Shown: piece after piece, positions 10,421-37,673 of the stretch
Layout of the letters: each line of letters starts with the position of its first letter
How positions within the stretch are numbered: position 1 is the stretch's first letter
NCBI GenBank assembly: GCA_019114985.1
Contig: DXEM01000032.1
Coordinates: forward strand, 1 to 64,000
Origin: Candidatus Anaerostipes excrementavium
Lineage (GTDB): Bacteria; Bacillota; Clostridia; Lachnospirales; Lachnospiraceae
Length of the DNA: 64,000 bases
Direction of reading: 5' to 3'
Program-made: the position numbers and the translations under genes
The notes under the pieces: generated by a model
The model's input: only the letters and a program-made list of their open reading frames with translations
Database searches by the model: none
What the model was told of the DNA's origin: nothing

Positions 10421-11873
10421 TACATCCTCCTTCGATTAAAAAGGACTTTAACGGATAAACTGTCATAGTTCCTTCACACTCTCCCTGGATAGAAACATTT
10501 CCCTTCAAGCTGTAGATTCTTGAAGTAAATACTTCTTCTCCATGGTTCACAAAAATCTCTATCGATGACGTATCGGCAAAAATCTGCAGGTATTCCAAAG
10601 ATTCAACTCGTACTTTCCTTGTTGTCCTGCCTGCACCGTATTCTCCGAGATCCAATGTAAGAATTTTATCCTTATAAGAAAGTGTGATTCCTTCCCTTAA
10701 AGTCATTGTCATATCCTTACACTTATTATACTCGACAATTGCCTCATAAACAACATCATCCAGCTGTTTTTTCTCTGCTTCGTCAAATGTCATCTTCGTT
10801 TCGCCGCAGCGAAGTTTTTTCAATTCTTCGATTGGCTCCTGAATGAATTTTCCATCTCTCAGAGACACCTGTCTCGGAATTGTAAGGGCATGCTGCCATC
10901 CGTCTTCTACTGTCGGATTTGTATATTCAGCATCCGGAATCCCCATCCATCCGATCAGAATCCTTCTTCCCTTCTCATCTTCAAAGGTTTGCTGAGCATA
11001 AAAGTCAAATCCTCGATCCATTAATTTGATATCTTCAATCTTAGATTCTTTCGTATCAAAATCATAGGTCAGCTTCATAGCTGTAGATTGATGCGGATTA
11101 TGATATTCAAACCCCTGCGGTTTTACACCCTGCGGACAGCAGGTCAAAATAAGTTGCCCGTCAATTTCAAATAAATCCGGGCATTCCCACATATACCCAA
11201 ATTTCTCATCTGTAGTAATGCGATCAAAATATTCCCAGTGTTTTCGATCCTCTGACTGATATAAAAGAACCATACCTTTGTCATTCCGATCTCTCGCCCC
11301 AAGAACCATGTAATATTTTCCATCATGTTTTAATATTTGGGGATCTCTTACATGGTTGCTGATATCCTCAGGACAATTATCAAGCGTCATCAGCAATTCT
11401 TTTGATGAAAATTCATATCCGTCTTTGCTGGTAAACATCACTGTATTGCTCTCACGCCCTGAATTGATATAGTCATAGTCATCCCGGTCAAATCGCTTCA
11501 CATTTCCTGTATAATAGAAATAGATCGTGTCGTCTTCCACGAACGCAGATCCGGAATAAACCCCGTGGGCATCGAAATCCTGGTCCGGAAATAATACCGG
11601 ACCATAATCTCGATAATGTACAAAATCTTTTGTGGTACAATGGGCCCACAGTTTTAATTCTCCTGTTGGTTCAAAAGGCGTGTACTGATAAAAAATATGA
11701 TAGGTTCCGTGAAATTGGCATAAGCCGTTCGGGTCATTAAGCCACCCGGTTTCCGGCATCAGATGAAACTGAAGCCTTCTGGGATCCGCTGCTACCTTTT
11801 CCCGATATTCTTTATTTTCCTGATACCATTTGTTATAATCTTCTTTCAGAACTTTTTTATATTTCTCAAACAT
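10410..11873 (-). CDS. scrB: Sucrose-6-phosphate hydrolase (GH32)
   Basis: GWLNDPNGLCQF, ECPDLF, HVRDPQI GH32 motifs. Confidence 0.93.
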   Translation of the reverse strand: MFEKYKKVLKEDYNKWYQENKEYREKVAADPRRLQFHLMPETGWLNDPNGLCQFHGTYHIFYQYTPFEPTGELKLWAHCTTKDFVHYRDYGPVLFPDQDFDAHGVYSGSAFVEDDTIYFYYTGNVKRFDRDDYDYINSGRESNTVMFTSKDGYEFSSKELLMTLDNCPEDISNHVRDPQILKHDGKYYMVLGARDRNDKGMVLLYQSEDRKHWEYFDRITTDEKFGYMWECPDLFEIDGQLILTCCPQGVKPQGFEYHNPHQSTAMKLTYDFDTKESKIEDIKLMDRGFDFYAQQTFEDEKGRRILIGWMGIPDAEYTNPTVEDGWQHALTIPRQVSLRDGKFIQEPIEELKKLRCGETKMTFDEAEKKQLDDVVYEAIVEYNKCKDMTMTLREGITLSYKDKILTLDLGEYGAGRTTRKVRVESLEYLQIFADTSSIEIFVNHGEEVFTSRIYSLKGNVSIQGECEGTMTVYPLKSFLIEGGCNEE

Positions 11874-30796: not shown

Positions 30797-30825
30797 TTAA
30801 CATTTCGTCGTTTTCTTGTTATAAT
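30797..30825 (+). promoter_or_regulatory. Promoter of GGDEF/EAL - CheB/CheR operon
   Basis: TTAACA - 17 bp - TATAAT. Confidence 0.7.
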
Positions 30826-30853
30826 GGATAGCGTATTTATATAAGTGATATTC

Positions 30854-30887
30854 AGGCAGTATACTGCTCAAATATACTGCCTTTTTC
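30854..30887 (+). terminator. Terminator-like hairpin in the 5' leader (candidate attenuator)
   Basis: aggcagtata-(9 nt)-tatactgcct followed by TTTTC, between promoter and start codon. Confidence 0.65.
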
Positions 30888-30912
30888 AAAAATTACATGG
30901 AGCAAGGGGGAC

Positions 30913-33900
30913 ATGTATATGAGCATCATGAGCAATGAAAAAGAATATCCGGTTATCCCGCCGAATCTCAAAAGCCAGTGGGATCAGCTGGAAAAACGTG
31001 CCCGCAAGGATGCCCTGTCAGGACTGCTCAACCGCGCTACAGTGGAACTGTATGTTAACCAAAGGCTCTCGTCTATTACTTCCGATGAATTATGTGCCCT
31101 GTTCATCGTAGATCTTGATAATTTCAAACAAGTGAACGATATACTGGGACATCCCGCCGGAGACCAGGCGATTCGTCAGTCGGCACAGATTCTTTCCGGT
31201 CTGTTCCGAAACGGCGATATCATCGGCAGGCTCGGCGGAGATGAATTTGTCGTATTTCTATCCGGCAGATTTACAGAACAGCTGATTCATAAAAAGGCTC
31301 AGGCCATTTGCCAGCACCTTTATCTGGCACTGGGAGATGAGCACAGGATTATCGTAACTGCCAGTGTCGGCGTTCATATTTCCACAGGCAGCGGTCAGCG
31401 GTTTGCGGGACTATACCAGTCGGCCGATCTTGCGCTGTACAAAGTCAAAAAGAATGGCAAGCACGGTTATTATATCAAATACAACGAAAACAACTCCGAC
31501 GATATTTATACAGAAAACAATTTTACACCGGTAAATACGATTCCGATGGGAGATCTTTTAGATTCCATGGAAAGCGGTGTTGCTCTGCTGGAAATGACAG
31601 AGACCCTCAATATCATTTATTTAAGCCCTAGTTTTTATCGTATCTTGGGATCTGATTCTGACTCTTTTTCTCTGCCCAAACCTCTTTCTGACTTTGTTTA
31701 CCCGGATGATTGGGCTGAAGTAGAAGAGATACTGCGCTCCGCCCTTAGAGAAAATCATACCGCAGAACATACACACCGCGTCATCTCTCCAGAACACAGG
31801 GATGGTTATTTCTGGTGGCGCTTCCGAGCTGTTCACATCAACTATAATCGTCCTTATCCGGTGATGCTCGTCACCACCACCGATGTATCTAGCTTTAAGG
31901 AAAAAGAAGTTGAGCTTCAGACAGTGAATCAGCGTTTTCAAGCTGCTTTGGAGCAGACTGCACAAAAATTATGGGAAATAGATCTTCAGAAACAATCCGT
32001 AAGCTTCGGAGTTACCCATAAACCTGAAACTTCAGACATTGTTTTCCCTGAAGGACTCATTTCCGAAGGATGGATCCATCCAAACTCTGCTCCGCGTTTT
32101 CGGAAGTTTGCCTCCGGTTTGCTGGAGGGTCAGACACGAGACAGAGGAAATTTTGTTATCCGACATCATGACACCGGCTGCTATGGCTGGGCGAATTTAT
32201 CCTATCAGGTTCTTTTTGATAAAGCAGGCCGCCCTGTCCGAGCTGTTGGCTCAGCAGAAAATTTACCTCAAAGTTTCGCAGACCAGGAATCAAAATCTAT
32301 TTTGAATCGTCCTCTGCCGGAAGCACAAATACCGAATTTAATTTTATGTATGCAAGCCAATCTTACTCTGGACACTGTCAAAGGACTTTGGATCGAAGGA
32401 AAAGAATCTCAGCTGCGCCCTGAAGAGGAACGCTGTACTCATATTCTAAAAAAAGAGGCTGAAAAGATTTTTTCTGAAAATGACCGGCAGACATTAAGCC
32501 CTTACTTTAACCGGCACGCACTATTGGATTTTTTTGCCCAAGACAAACACTGGGTTTCTGCAAAGTACTGCCGCACCGATGGAAACGGAAACATCTGCCG
32601 AGTTCGTTATACTGCGAATTTAGTGGAAAATTCTTTCACCGGGGAAGTCTGGCTTTTCCTTTACCTCAGCCTATGGGAACAGCATTTCCAGTGGGAACAG
32701 GTTCTTACTGACGAAGCTGCCAAAGATCCTGTTTCCGGACTGTATGACAGCACTGCTGCTCAACAGATGATTTCATCCTTGATTCAGCATCAAGGTCAAA
32801 CATATTGTTCCATGGCAATGATCCAGATCGGCGGGCTGACACAACTTTACGCTTTAGATAACAAAGCAACGAAGCAAGGCCGGCGTGATATTACAGAAGC
32901 CTTTATCGTTGCTCTCGGTTCAGAGTGTGTTATCGGACAGCACAATCCAGAACAGCTGCTGGTATTTTACCCATATGTGTATTCCAAGGCGGAACTTCGC
33001 CGACGTTTGCATGAGGCATTTACCTTTGTCCGCCTGGTACTGGAAAACAGTCTGTCTTTAAATTCTTTGCGTTTTGCAGCGGGAGCAGTATGCCTCCCTG
33101 CAGACAAAGCAGATTGTGAATCAATGGTTCTACAAACTTCCCGCCTGTGTCAATCATGGCGCAGCTTATCCAAGGATCAGGTGATTTTCCCACAGGAGGA
33201 AGATGATTGGACATGGGAAGACGAGCTGCAGTCAAATAACGAGAATGACCGGGGCACAATTCATCAAGAAGAAATGGAACGTCCTCTGTCGGATGGAGAA
33301 AAGGATGTAGCTCTCCAGGTGATTTCTTCCATGCTTACTGCGGATTCATTGGACGAGTCCATGCACAGCACACTTAGCCAGATTGGAAAATATTATCATG
33401 CCGACCGGGTTTACCTGCTCCGGTTTACAGAAAGCCGACATGCCATCACCATGCCTTATGAATGGATCGGTCAGAAAAAACACAGTATTCAGCATGTAGT
33501 TTCCGGTATGCCTTTAACTGACTTTCCTTTCCTGGATCGCTGCATAAAGGAACAGGCTCCGGTATTTTTAGCTCGGACACAGCCTTCTTTCCAACAGACG
33601 AAAGATTCTGATAAATCTTGGTATTTTACTGCGTTCCCTTTGGTGGTCGGTTCGGATACCATCGGGGTTCTTTGTATTGAGAATGCCAGAAAACATCCTG
33701 CAGATGCGGCATTGTTCAGCGCTATCATTCCCCATCTTTTGCGGGAACCTCAGCGTTTTGAAAGCAGATCCTCCCAAAACGGAGAGAATACAGAAATCTC
33801 CAGCGAACTTCCAAATCTGCGCTCGTATCTCCAGGTAATTCATAATTTTAATTCCGACAATTACAGCAGCTTGGGAGTAATCTGCCTGGACATTCCCGGC

Positions 33901-35043
33901 TTGAGCGCGATAAACGGAAGTCAAGGTTTCTCATATGGCAACAAACTGCTGCAATATGTATCCAAAACACTGTCCAACATTTTTGGATCCTCCCTGCTTT
34001 TCCGAACATGGGATATGGAGTTTGTAGTTTTATGTCCAAATACAATCCGGCAGATTTTTGTGGAACGATGTGATCGGCTGCGAGCCGCCCTGCAGTACCG
34101 CTATCCGAAAACACTTCGTCTCGGAAGGGCCTGGGCGGATGGAATATTTAACGGCAAAGACATGGTCGATGAAGCTCGTGCGATCATGCGCTGCCAGGAA
34201 GTTACCGCAAAATCCATGCCGGAACAGATTTTTTCTTTTCCGGATGAATTTCACAATACAGAGGAGGCTGTTCAGGCAGGCCATTTTACCGTTTTTTATC
34301 AGCCTAAAATCAACATACGTACCGGGGCTCTTTACGGAGCAGAAGCTCTGGTTCGCGGACTGGACTTAGATGGAAATCCGGTTCCCCCAAGACAATTTAT
34401 CGAGTTTTTAGAAAAGAACGGAGGAATCCAAAAACTGGATCTCTTTGTCTTGGAACAGGTGCTTGCAGCAATGGAACGATGGCGCACACAGGGGCTGGGT
34501 ATCATCCCTGTTTCCCTAAACTTTTCCAGGGCCACCCTGTTTACCCCTTACGTGCTTGGTTCGGTACTTGCTCTGCTAAGCCGTTATCCGGACATCCCGC
34601 CGGATGCTCTGGAACTGGAGATTACCGAAAGCGTCAGCAATGTAGGAAAATCTGATCTTATTGCGGTTATGGACCAATATCGGGAGCTGGGACTCCGTTT
34701 TAGTCTGGATGATTTCGGATCACAGTACGCCAACATCCCGATTTTCACCAACGTACATTTTGACACCGTCAAGCTTGACCGCCATCTGATCTCCGAATTA
34801 TCGAGCAATTCTATTAACCGAATGCTAATACATGACATCATTCAGATCTGTCAGGTTTCAGGAATGACTTGTGTAGCTGAGGGTGTAGAAACCCAGATTC
34901 AGCAGGATATACTGACAGAAATCGGCTGCGTCTACGCTCAAGGTTATTATTATGACCGTCCTATGGAGGCGGATAAATTTGAAGAGAAATACCTGCGTAC
35001 TTCCGGAAACGTGAAGCAGGCAGGAAAGGAGGATAATATATGA
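30913..35043 (+). CDS. Multidomain c-di-GMP protein: GGDEF-PAS-PAS-degenerate GGDEF-GAF-degenerate GGDEF-EAL
   Basis: N-terminal DALSGLLNRATVE...RLGGDEFVVF; C-terminal EALVRG...LEITES...LDDFGSQYANI...VKLDRHL...AEGVETQ; true start may be 30919. Confidence 0.88.
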   Translation: MYMSIMSNEKEYPVIPPNLKSQWDQLEKRARKDALSGLLNRATVELYVNQRLSSITSDELCALFIVDLDNFKQVNDILGHPAGDQAIRQSAQILSGLFRNGDIIGRLGGDEFVVFLSGRFTEQLIHKKAQAICQHLYLALGDEHRIIVTASVGVHISTGSGQRFAGLYQSADLALYKVKKNGKHGYYIKYNENNSDDIYTENNFTPVNTIPMGDLLDSMESGVALLEMTETLNIIYLSPSFYRILGSDSDSFSLPKPLSDFVYPDDWAEVEEILRSALRENHTAEHTHRVISPEHRDGYFWWRFRAVHINYNRPYPVMLVTTTDVSSFKEKEVELQTVNQRFQAALEQTAQKLWEIDLQKQSVSFGVTHKPETSDIVFPEGLISEGWIHPNSAPRFRKFASGLLEGQTRDRGNFVIRHHDTGCYGWANLSYQVLFDKAGRPVRAVGSAENLPQSFADQESKSILNRPLPEAQIPNLILCMQANLTLDTVKGLWIEGKESQLRPEEERCTHILKKEAEKIFSENDRQTLSPYFNRHALLDFFAQDKHWVSAKYCRTDGNGNICRVRYTANLVENSFTGEVWLFLYLSLWEQHFQWEQVLTDEAAKDPVSGLYDSTAAQQMISSLIQHQGQTYCSMAMIQIGGLTQLYALDNKATKQGRRDITEAFIVALGSECVIGQHNPEQLLVFYPYVYSKAELRRRLHEAFTFVRLVLENSLSLNSLRFAAGAVCLPADKADCESMVLQTSRLCQSWRSLSKDQVIFPQEEDDWTWEDELQSNNENDRGTIHQEEMERPLSDGEKDVALQVISSMLTADSLDESMHSTLSQIGKYYHADRVYLLRFTESRHAITMPYEWIGQKKHSIQHVVSGMPLTDFPFLDRCIKEQAPVFLARTQPSFQQTKDSDKSWYFTAFPLVVGSDTIGVLCIENARKHPADAALFSAIIPHLLREPQRFESRSSQNGENTEISSELPNLRSYLQVIHNFNSDNYSSLGVICLDIPGLSAINGSQGFSYGNKLLQYVSKTLSNIFGSSLLFRTWDMEFVVLCPNTIRQIFVERCDRLRAALQYRYPKTLRLGRAWADGIFNGKDMVDEARAIMRCQEVTAKSMPEQIFSFPDEFHNTEEAVQAGHFTVFYQPKINIRTGALYGAEALVRGLDLDGNPVPPRQFIEFLEKNGGIQKLDLFVLEQVLAAMERWRTQGLGIIPVSLNFSRATLFTPYVLGSVLALLSRYPDIPPDALELEITESVSNVGKSDLIAVMDQYRELGLRFSLDDFGSQYANIPIFTNVHFDTVKLDRHLISELSSNSINRMLIHDIIQICQVSGMTCVAEGVETQIQQDILTEIGCVYAQGYYYDRPMEADKFEEKYLRTSGNVKQAGKEDNI

Positions 35044-37574
35044 ATCAAAACAGTGAACACAATCCTGCCATTGCTTCGCAGGAAGAATCCCCGATCATCA
35101 TCGCTATCGGCGCTTCAGCCGGCGGATTAGAAGCGCTTCAGCAGTTTTTTAGCTGCTTTCCGGGCAGCAGCGGTCTGAGCTTTGTGGTAGTACAGCATCT
35201 ATCACCGGATTATAAAAGTCTGATGGCGGATATTTTGAGTAAACATACCCCTATGGAAGTATATCAGGCAGAAAACGAGATGGAAGTACATCCAAACACC
35301 GTCTATTTGATTCCGCCAAAAAAATATATCACATTGCAGGAAGGTAAATTGATCCTGTCCGATTACGCCCAGGGCACCCTAAATCACCCGATTGACATTT
35401 TCTTCTCTTCTCTGGCAAAAGAGCGGAGAGAGCAGTCAATTGCAGTTATTTTGTCAGGTACAGGCTCTGACGGTACCAAAGGAGTCAAAGTTGTAAAAGA
35501 ACATGGCGGTCTGGTCATTGCCCAAGATCCGGAAAGCGCCAAATTTGATGGTATGCCAAAGAGCGTCATCAAAACAGGATTGGCAGATTTTATCCTCTCT
35601 CCGGAAGAAATTGCGGATGAGATCCTCAATTTCACCAACACTCCCGCTCTGCTTTCTGCCCCTAAGCATGACGGCCCTCTCTCGGAGGACGAGGTACTTT
35701 TTTCTGAGGAAGAAAATCTTTCCCACATTTATACAATCCTGAAAAATGCCAGCGGCATCGACTTCACTTACTATAAACGTTCTACCATCCTAAGACGTAT
35801 CGAACGCCGCATGCTGGTTACCCACACCTCCAACCTGAGCGAATTTGCCCGACTGCTGGGGGACAATCCCGAGGAAGTTAACATCTTAACAAAGGAAATT
35901 CTCATTGGTGTCACCAATTTCTTCCGGGATCCTGAATTTTTTGAGAAACTGAAATATAACGCGATCTATAAAATTGTTGAAAATACAAAGGAAAACGAAC
36001 CAATCCGTGTGTGGAGCGCCGGATGTTCCACCGGTGAGGAAGCGTACTCTATCGCTATCTTGTTCCAAGAAGTTATGGATGAGCTGCAGATCCGCCGGGA
36101 CGTAAAGATCTTTGCTACCGATGTGGACAGCCGTGCCATTGAACAGGCAGGCAAAGGAATCTATTCAGAGAATATCATCGATGATGTCACGCCTGACCGT
36201 CTGGCAAAGTTCTTTATCAAACAAAACGATCAGTACCAGATCATCAAAGGAATCCGACGAATGATTATCTTTGCCACACATAATATGTTTTCAGATCCTC
36301 CTTTCGGCAAGCTGGATATGATCATCTGCCGCAACGTTATGATTTATTTTCAGCCGGTACTGCGCAGGGGATTGTTTGCTATTTTCCACTCTGCCCTGAA
36401 AAAAAACGGCTACCTTTTCCTTGGCAAAAGCGAGACCGCAGGAGAATATGTAGGCCTGTTTAAGCCGGTGTGCGGAGCAGAAAAGATCTATATTCACAAG
36501 GGTGAGGGCAAGGTAGAAGATCTGACACCTCCTACCTTTAGTATTCCGAATATTCAGGCTATCTCCCTTAAAAGCATCCATATGGAAAACCAAAATGATT
36601 CCTCCGTAGCCGAAGGAAAATATACCAGGTTTTTAGAGGCTTTTCTTCCGCCTTCTGTGGTCCTCAATGAGGAAAATACCGTGCTCCATTTTTTTGGCGG
36701 ATATGACGATTATCTGACTCTGGCACCTGGAAAAGCCACCCTAAACTTTTTCAGTATGCTGAACAAGGGACTGTCACTGGTTGCTTCCACGGCATTAAGC
36801 CGCAGCCGAAATGAAAAAATCAGCGTTACCTATACCGATATTGCCGTAGACTGTCCATCGGGACAAAAAATCATCGATTTGGTCGTAGAACCTATTCCTG
36901 ATGAACCCGGTGAGGACAGTAATCTGACGGCTGTACTCTTTTTGGAACACCGGCATGAATCTTTGGGTGGAATTCAGGAGAAATATGATATTGATGCCAC
37001 TGCCGCCAGGCGTATTGCTGATCTGGAACGGGAATTCCAAGACTCTCAGAATGATCTTCGTGCGACAATCCAGCGCCTGGAAACAGTCAATGGCGAACTG
37101 CAGGCTGCCAACGAGGAATTGCTCACTGCCAACGAAGAACTGCAAAGTTCCACAGAAGAACTGCAGTCAGTCAATGAAGAACTTTATACTGTTAACACTG
37201 AACATCAGCTGAAGTTGGACGAACTGACCATGATGACCAATGACTTGTCCAATTTCCTATCCTCCACGATGATCGGTATCCTGTTTGTAGACAGCAAACT
37301 GAATATCCGCAAATTTACCGAGTATGTAGGAAGAGAATTTCAGCTGATGGAACATGATGTGGGACGTCCGATCCAGATTTTCGCTCACAGTTTCCCTGAT
37401 GAGGAAATCGAAAAAGACTGCCAGACCGTATTAAAAGATCTCGTCTCTATTGACCGGGAGGTAACAGCCATGAACGGACGGTTCTATACCCTGCGTATTG
37501 CGCCTTACCGCACCACAGAAAACAACATCCGCGGTCTGGTCATTACCATTATCGACAGCTTAGGGACGGATTGA
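35040..37574 (+). CDS. CheB methylesterase - CheR methyltransferase - coiled coil - PAS fusion
   Basis: CheB GASAGGLEAL, VVQHLSPD, LSGTGSDGTKG; CheR RVWSAGCSTGEEAYS, MIICRNVMIYF; NEELQSSTEELQSVNEEL coiled coil. Confidence 0.92.
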   Translation: MNQNSEHNPAIASQEESPIIIAIGASAGGLEALQQFFSCFPGSSGLSFVVVQHLSPDYKSLMADILSKHTPMEVYQAENEMEVHPNTVYLIPPKKYITLQEGKLILSDYAQGTLNHPIDIFFSSLAKERREQSIAVILSGTGSDGTKGVKVVKEHGGLVIAQDPESAKFDGMPKSVIKTGLADFILSPEEIADEILNFTNTPALLSAPKHDGPLSEDEVLFSEEENLSHIYTILKNASGIDFTYYKRSTILRRIERRMLVTHTSNLSEFARLLGDNPEEVNILTKEILIGVTNFFRDPEFFEKLKYNAIYKIVENTKENEPIRVWSAGCSTGEEAYSIAILFQEVMDELQIRRDVKIFATDVDSRAIEQAGKGIYSENIIDDVTPDRLAKFFIKQNDQYQIIKGIRRMIIFATHNMFSDPPFGKLDMIICRNVMIYFQPVLRRGLFAIFHSALKKNGYLFLGKSETAGEYVGLFKPVCGAEKIYIHKGEGKVEDLTPPTFSIPNIQAISLKSIHMENQNDSSVAEGKYTRFLEAFLPPSVVLNEENTVLHFFGGYDDYLTLAPGKATLNFFSMLNKGLSLVASTALSRSRNEKISVTYTDIAVDCPSGQKIIDLVVEPIPDEPGEDSNLTAVLFLEHRHESLGGIQEKYDIDATAARRIADLEREFQDSQNDLRATIQRLETVNGELQAANEELLTANEELQSSTEELQSVNEELYTVNTEHQLKLDELTMMTNDLSNFLSSTMIGILFVDSKLNIRKFTEYVGREFQLMEHDVGRPIQIFAHSFPDEEIEKDCQTVLKDLVSIDREVTAMNGRFYTLRIAPYRTTENNIRGLVITIIDSLGTD

Positions 37575-37632: not shown

Positions 37633-37673
37633 ATGAGACGGCGCTCATCTGAAAAGATGAAGCGCCGTCTCAT
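37633..37673. terminator. Bidirectional terminator hairpin between convergent genes
   Basis: gagacggcgctcatctgaaaagatgaagcgccgtctc. Confidence 0.75.

Follow-up and report, generated by a model that had tools for sequence, protein, structure and literature searches.

A conserved gene pair of gut bacteria joins a c-di-GMP enzyme to a CheB-CheR-PAS protein with a likely methyl target in its own chain

The reversible methylation of glutamate is known chiefly from the memory of chemotactic signalling, in which CheR and CheB serve methyl-accepting chemotaxis proteins (MCPs) that work with CheA and CheW. In the Escherichia coli type of methylation the second residue of EE, EQ, QE or QQ pairs is used, and in FrzCD of Myxococcus the methylated residues, Glu 168, 175 and 182, are spaced by 7 inside AASTQHETSSTEQAAAIHETTATMEEL (PMC2535941). 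FrzCD is a separate cytoplasmic MCP of a chemosensory pathway, and its methyltransferase, FrzF, is a CheR-TPR fusion (PMC2535941). CheR methylation is linked to cyclic di-GMP (c-di-GMP) in MapZ-CheR1 of Pseudomonas aeruginosa, where c-di-GMP acts on a chemotaxis CheR as an inhibitor, with a PilZ adaptor in between (PMC6370697). On the c-di-GMP side, DosP-type phosphodiesterases carry PAS sensors on a degenerate GGDEF-EAL output. Fusions of CheB-CheR-PAS, with or without a histidine kinase, are annotated 'chemotaxis protein CheB' in Azospirillum, Rhizobium, Nostoc, Deinococcus, Salinibacter and others, and in the open-licence literature we found no experimental study of them, nor of any that works without chemotaxis. 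Here we describe two adjoining genes in a 64,000-nucleotide stretch of Candidatus Anaerostipes excrementavium (contig DXEM01000032.1 of assembly GCA_019114985.1, positions 1 to 64,000; hereafter the window). Gene 1 encodes a GGDEF/EAL protein, and gene 2 a CheB-CheR-PAS protein that likely contains its own methyl target. The features of the pair are as follows.

30913..35043, plus strand: gene 1, 1376 amino acids; GGDEF, three PAS, degenerate GGDEF, GAF, degenerate GGDEF, EAL; EAL motifs intact
31006..31461, plus strand: N-terminal GGDEF domain of gene 1; GGDEF and RxxD present
34261..34962, plus strand: EAL domain of gene 1; catalytic motifs intact here
35040..37574, plus strand: gene 2, 844 amino acids; CheB, CheR, PAS-like fold, long helix, PAS_10
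35100..35624, plus strand: CheB methylesterase domain, residues 21-195 (S26, H53, D144); Pfam, motifs and fold
35733..36464, plus strand: CheR_N and CheR methyltransferase domains, residues 232-475; Pfam, motifs and fold
36600..36944, plus strand: PAS-like fold between CheR and the helix, residues about 521-635; predicted structure only
36990..37265, plus strand: single continuous helix, residues 651-742; predicted structure
37113..37181, plus strand: proposed methyl-accepting heptads, Glu-Glu 692/693, 699/700, 706/707 and 713/714; conservation
37245..37556, plus strand: C-terminal PAS_10, residues 736-839, end of the protein; Pfam

The original prediction had named two open reading frames of 1376 and 844 amino acids with a common ATGA at 35040-35043, intact CheB and CheR motifs and a PAS at the end, and these statements were borne out. 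CheB S26, H53 and D144 and the CheR S-adenosylmethionine (SAM) motif GCSTGEEAYS are present, and gene 2 stops after PAS_10. The pair is also, as had been said, the sole large plus-strand block; the remaining plus-strand frames of at least 150 amino acids are short and mostly overlap genes of the minus strand. Pfam matches of gene 2 were CheB_methylest, CheR_N, CheR and PAS_10. Gene 2 has what marks the fusion family: a single chain that unites CheB, CheR_N/CheR and PAS, their motifs being intact, and a Glu-rich heptad helix before the C-terminal PAS. Scanning one genome per species turned up 298 relatives of gene 2, and the pair counts are based on the 80 best of these. Catalytic and SAM-binding residues of CheB and CheR were retained at 95-100% across these 80 proteins. 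Opposite gene 2, antisense frames of ∼800-1300 codons were seen in several carriers (at many loci, for example L049, L050 and L051; ORF cluster 3), probably as an effect of codon composition.

The helix between the two PAS folds has four heptads of the form [AST]xNEELx, in which Glu pairs are spaced by 7 with small residues between them, as in methyl-accepting helices. Residues 680-723 are the best-conserved 44-residue segment of gene 2 (0.96, compared with 0.88 for PAS_10, 0.83 for CheR and 0.80 for CheB), and the four Glu pairs are invariant in 80/80 proteins. We also compared nine distant fusions, from Azospirillum, Nostoc, Nitrobacter, Sulfitobacter, Deinococcus, Salinibacter, Cupriavidus, Leptolyngbya and a clostridial relative of the window's own order (G123), which together cover Alpha- and Betaproteobacteria, Cyanobacteria, Deinococcota and Rhodothermota besides that relative. 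There the eight Glu columns were 98.6% identical, whereas the remaining helix columns reached 61%, CheR 45% and the whole protein 37%. Most of the distant fusions carry exactly one extra heptad, inserted in register, and one Glu pair varies between E and Q among them. From this pattern of residues, the helix is likely the substrate of the CheR and CheB of the same chain. The methyl-accepting protein need not be a separate, unidentified one, because gene 2 itself bears the invariant Glu-Glu heptad helix. The likeness to Frz would lie in a fused CheR acting on Glu residues spaced by 7, and the difference in the absence of an MCP here.

The pair itself is strongly conserved. Two contigs (L101 and L108) begin inside gene 2, which leaves 78 testable loci (CheB-CheR protein identity 60-93%). 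In all 78, gene 2 has a gene 1 homologue beside it, and in 77 this homologue lies upstream on the same strand; in the other, Collinsella tanakaei An791, the two genes are convergent. This adjacency, which the original prediction had proposed to look for and on which it had staked itself, rules out chance neighbours. The gaps between the genes are mostly -20 to +60 nucleotides, with an overlap of 4 nucleotides being frequent, and the remaining neighbours are mostly unrelated between loci. The distances of the two proteins were strongly correlated (Mantel r = 0.85, a value reached in none of 2000 permutations), and gene 1 has diverged at about double the rate of gene 2 (mean distance 0.60 vs 0.28).

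Next to conservation stands the absence of chemotaxis domains, which had been noted in the window and was named as a check for the rest of the genome. In the window's genome (G000; 2.69 Mb, 97.7% complete) we found no MCP signal domain and no CheW-domain protein, neither CheW nor CheA, genome-wide, flagellar genes not having been searched for; gene 2 is its only CheR. Among 51 carriers searched whole, the same 47 lack both MCP and CheW, a count in which the completeness of most genomes is not reported and flagellar genes were again not part of the search; they include G000 itself and G045, a single-contig genome that is 99% complete. Both domains are present in the other four (G145, G168, G180 and G192), and a further carrier, G132, has MCPs. 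MCPs over the cut-off were present in 87 of 145 relative genomes (∼60%; Fisher p about 2e-11 for carriers against relatives), and this depletion is to be taken as a strong tendency only, because the genomes are related and the two sets overlap slightly. The pair shares with canonical chemosensory adaptation the CheR and CheB enzymes and the methyl-accepting-type heptads spaced by 7. It differs in that its host and most carriers have no MCP or CheW domain, in that the CheB of gene 2 has no receiver domain, and in that enzymes and proposed substrate stand in one chain.

Gene 1 gave Pfam matches to GGDEF (two stretches), PAS_3, GAF and EAL. On refinement it shows a single intact GGDEF along with two degenerate GGDEF-like domains, GAF, an intact EAL and probably three PAS folds. 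The structure predicted for its middle part (pLDDT 82) points to additional PAS-like folds and to a degenerate GGDEF, and its best fold matches are DosP, a PAS-GGDEF-EAL phosphodiesterase. The EAL signature residues (EAL motif, Asn, Glu, DDFG, Lys, EGVE and Gln) are all present in gene 1 and intact in 62/63 homologues. The window's gene 1 also carries the signature of a putative diguanylate cyclase (GG[DE]EF and the RxxD I-site); the GGDEF signature is kept in only 35/63 homologues. This difference suggests that c-di-GMP hydrolysis would be the common output of the gene 1 family. Gene 1 resembles the DosP-type phosphodiesterases in its PAS sensors on a degenerate GGDEF-EAL output, but it is larger, carries a GAF and one more GGDEF at its N terminus, scores far below the NCBIfam equivalog cut-offs, and lies in an operon with CheB-CheR-PAS.

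Taken together, the pair is very probably a real, conserved, chemotaxis-independent unit of c-di-GMP signalling. The mechanism that we propose for it is as follows. The CheR of gene 2 would methylate, and its CheB demethylate, the Glu-Glu heptads of its own helix, either within a dimer or between dimers. The helix would link the PAS-like fold to the C-terminal PAS_10, and its level of methylation would adapt or reset the PAS report, much as methylation of MCPs resets receptors. Gene 2 would control the co-translated gene 1 by direct protein contact. The conserved output of gene 1 would be the EAL c-di-GMP phosphodiesterase, the N-terminal GGDEF being optional across the family, and the change in c-di-GMP would act through effectors already in the cell, for example the c-di-GMP-I riboswitch before a VTC-DUF4956-CotH-glycosyltransferase operon. 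That the pair is a horizontally spread module with this full self-methylation mechanism we consider possible, at somewhat below an even chance. We hold more tentatively still the wider proposition that CheB-CheR-PAS proteins are complete single-chain 'methyl-accepting' sensors, which write and erase marks on their own helix and which in gut anaerobes form a mobile two-gene module, giving hosts that lack chemotaxis an adapting c-di-GMP sensor without chemoreceptor or CheA.

Four other explanations were weighed. The catalytic domains might act on a third protein, such as a hybrid kinase or a PAS protein encoded elsewhere, so that the pair would form only part of a wider pathway. In a subset of loci, genes for a hybrid histidine kinase, HPt and HD-GYP do lie near the pair, and distant relatives often run into or adjoin histidine kinases; however, such neighbours are absent from most loci, and the retention of the two-gene unit in many unrelated settings suggests self-sufficiency. 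We regard this explanation as unlikely. It is likewise unlikely that the CheR and CheB of gene 2 methylate gene 1 in place of their own helix, which would then be a dimerisation and signalling rod. The near-obligate pairing, the frequent co-translation and the correlated divergence would agree with gene 1 as the substrate, but it has no invariant Glu-Glu heptads, its only match to a methylation-like motif is a QQ near residues 613-622, it is far less conserved than gene 2, and the distant CheB-CheR-PAS proteins keep the helix with no gene 1 partner. The notion that CheB and CheR are retained scaffolds without methyl turnover, with the PAS domains alone signalling to gene 1, can be reached by reasoning, but it sits badly with the near-complete retention of catalytic and SAM-binding residues and appears improbable. 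Ordinary service as adaptation proteins for MCPs elsewhere in the cell could be imagined in the five carriers that have MCPs; with 47 of the 51 carriers, G045 among them, devoid of MCP and CheW, we consider it highly improbable.

Returning to self-methylation within gene 2, several points weigh against it or narrow it. The main alternative for the helix is a conserved dimer coil, and dimerisation or the binding of a partner might by itself account for its conservation. The structure predicted for gene 2 has low confidence as a whole and shows a monomer (predicted local distance difference score (pLDDT) 69.7, predicted template modelling score (pTM) 0.35), so that access of CheR to the helix is a presumption. 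The elements that we infer are helix methylation, direct binding of the two proteins to each other, the direction of control and the ligand. One Collinsella carries the pair in convergent rather than co-directional order. Finally, an output through a polysaccharide operon is not obligatory and was rejected as a general rule, since the glycosyltransferase of that operon is present in only 15/51 carriers.

We examined the c-di-GMP context of the pair. The genome G000 has 12 GGDEF matches, two of them in gene 1. A c-di-GMP-I riboswitch (G000:C26:15183-15289) stands directly before the VTC operon, in a cluster (G000:C26:12265-27703; L132:4266-19704) with genes for an HD-GYP regulator, GGDEF, VTC, DUF4956, CotH, HEAT, glycosyltransferase 2, GGDEF-EAL and a hybrid kinase. 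This riboswitch-controlled operon of surface-polysaccharide type is a plausible effector in this genome, not a universal one. In L061 the contig that carries the pair also has a c-di-GMP-II riboswitch (10908-10991), directly before a VTC-type gene; two unrelated riboswitch classes are seen in the same role in the two genomes. A second c-di-GMP-I riboswitch of G000 (G000:C32:67026-67111) is near GGDEF and PilZ matches.

A hybrid kinase and/or an HD-GYP regulator was found within about 6.5 kb of the pair in 15 of the 78 loci (a raw count, without a chance expectation), from Eisenbergiella, Oscillospiraceae, Collinsella and others, and in more than one orientation. In G123, an MCP-bearing genome of the window's order, a CheB-CheR-PAS gene (43% identity) is followed, after about 20 nucleotides, by a GGDEF-HD-GYP gene of the same strand (L036:6489-10587), and this arrangement is an independent pairing of CheB-CheR-PAS with c-di-GMP turnover. 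The pair resembles MapZ-CheR1 in that CheR methylation is linked to c-di-GMP, and PDB 5xly is a fold match; it differs in that the link is a neighbouring c-di-GMP enzyme. A route through PilZ/MapZ was set aside as a general feature, PilZ being too rare (in 7/51 carriers, absent from 44/51). The single PilZ match of G000 is in a 626-codon frame beside a GGDEF match and is not a stand-alone MapZ-like protein.

The titles of the 80 carriers place 71 in Bacillota, five in Spirochaetota and one each in Actinomycetota and Thermodesulfobacteriota, with two lacking an assignment; they include a Collinsella and a Desulfovibrionaceae, and the taxonomy comes partly from titles or bins of metagenome-assembled genomes (MAGs), which can be wrong. 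Counted roughly from their text, 37 of the 80 titles have poultry-type names, and a further six belong to An-series strains. Strains bearing the pair include Anaerotignum An390, Pseudoflavonifractor An507, Faecalibacterium An121, Lachnoclostridium An118 and Collinsella An791; P. phocaeensis An507 has two divergent pair loci on different contigs (L046, L081). The presence of the module in gut bacteria of several phyla, for the most part poultry-named, suggests a selectable benefit in that setting. In the tree (FastTree, local supports) Spirochaetota stand at two places inside Bacillota. The window protein groups with Egerieimonas and a Ruminococcus MAG in a set rich in Oscillospiraceae and Butyricicoccaceae, away from most Lachnospiraceae.

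By comparison of gene content, the pair looks horizontally acquired by the window's genome, because in the sister species its position is taken by two different genes. In G004 and G010, whose ppdK proteins are 97 and 96% identical to that of the window, the ppdK-licT interval is about 2.0 kb, against the 6.7-kb pair here, and holds tetR-like and iron-alcohol-dehydrogenase-like genes (assigned from sequence). A full-length gene 2 was found in 0/10 congeners, three of which have only separate CheR-like matches, and no recurring cluster of mobile-element genes at the pair loci explains the transfer. Contamination of the bin was ruled out, as the window is in a 192-kb contig with flanks matching the sister genomes and isolates also carry the pair. 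Apparently decayed copies were observed at L038 and L039, as a gene 2 remnant in G031 and as a broken gene 1 accompanied by no more than a remnant of gene 2 in G138, and several gene 1 copies (L077, L080, L098, L105) contain internal stops. They suggest frequent gain and loss, or assembly errors.

The CheB-CheR-PAS architecture is already widespread, with matches in 734 plasmid records, 245 of them over at least 80% of the protein. The annotated fusions share with gene 2 the order CheB-CheR-helix-PAS and the Glu-Glu heptads, at 34-41% identity over about 96% of the protein. The examples compared are 982-1495 amino acids long and have extra PAS and often kinase domains, whereas the gut type has PAS_10 as its last domain and a GGDEF/EAL protein as its partner. 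Of the original prediction of an undescribed, non-chemotactic switch between methylation and c-di-GMP, the non-chemotactic part agrees with the conserved pair and the missing MCP and CheW, and 'undescribed' cannot stand for the architecture. The pair as such was found nowhere described in the open-licence literature searched. What is new is the likely methyl target within the CheB-CheR protein. If true, a memory chemistry without receptor or CheA, tied to c-di-GMP, would extend to bacteria without chemotaxis, and the in-chain heptads make a direct test possible for an entire family whose members usually receive a chemotaxis annotation.

The remaining signals of the locus are the following.

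30797..30825, plus strand: promoter-like site TTAACA-17-TATAAT with TG before the -10; consensus scan, 11/12 matches
30856..30888, plus strand: terminator-like hairpin GGCAGTATAC..TATACTGCC-TTTTT in the 5' leader of gene 1, possible attenuator; sequence
37633..37673 (about), no strand given: strong hairpin between gene 2 and the convergent ppdK, likely shared terminator

A single promoter for both genes had been claimed from position 30797, where a promoter-like site does start. It is a consensus match only, and the promoter is unproven because the number of such sites is not above chance (9 found across the region vs 13 expected from shuffles). The leader hairpin has a fold z of only -1.1, and no common element was found upstream of gene 1 in the relatives. 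Its conservation was rejected as a candidate feature, terminator-like hairpins being present in 25/62 cases vs 100/481 control genes and heterogeneous in place and sequence. A search of the window against Rfam gave no match. The hairpin between gene 2 and ppdK folds at -36.7 kcal/mol (z = -7.1).

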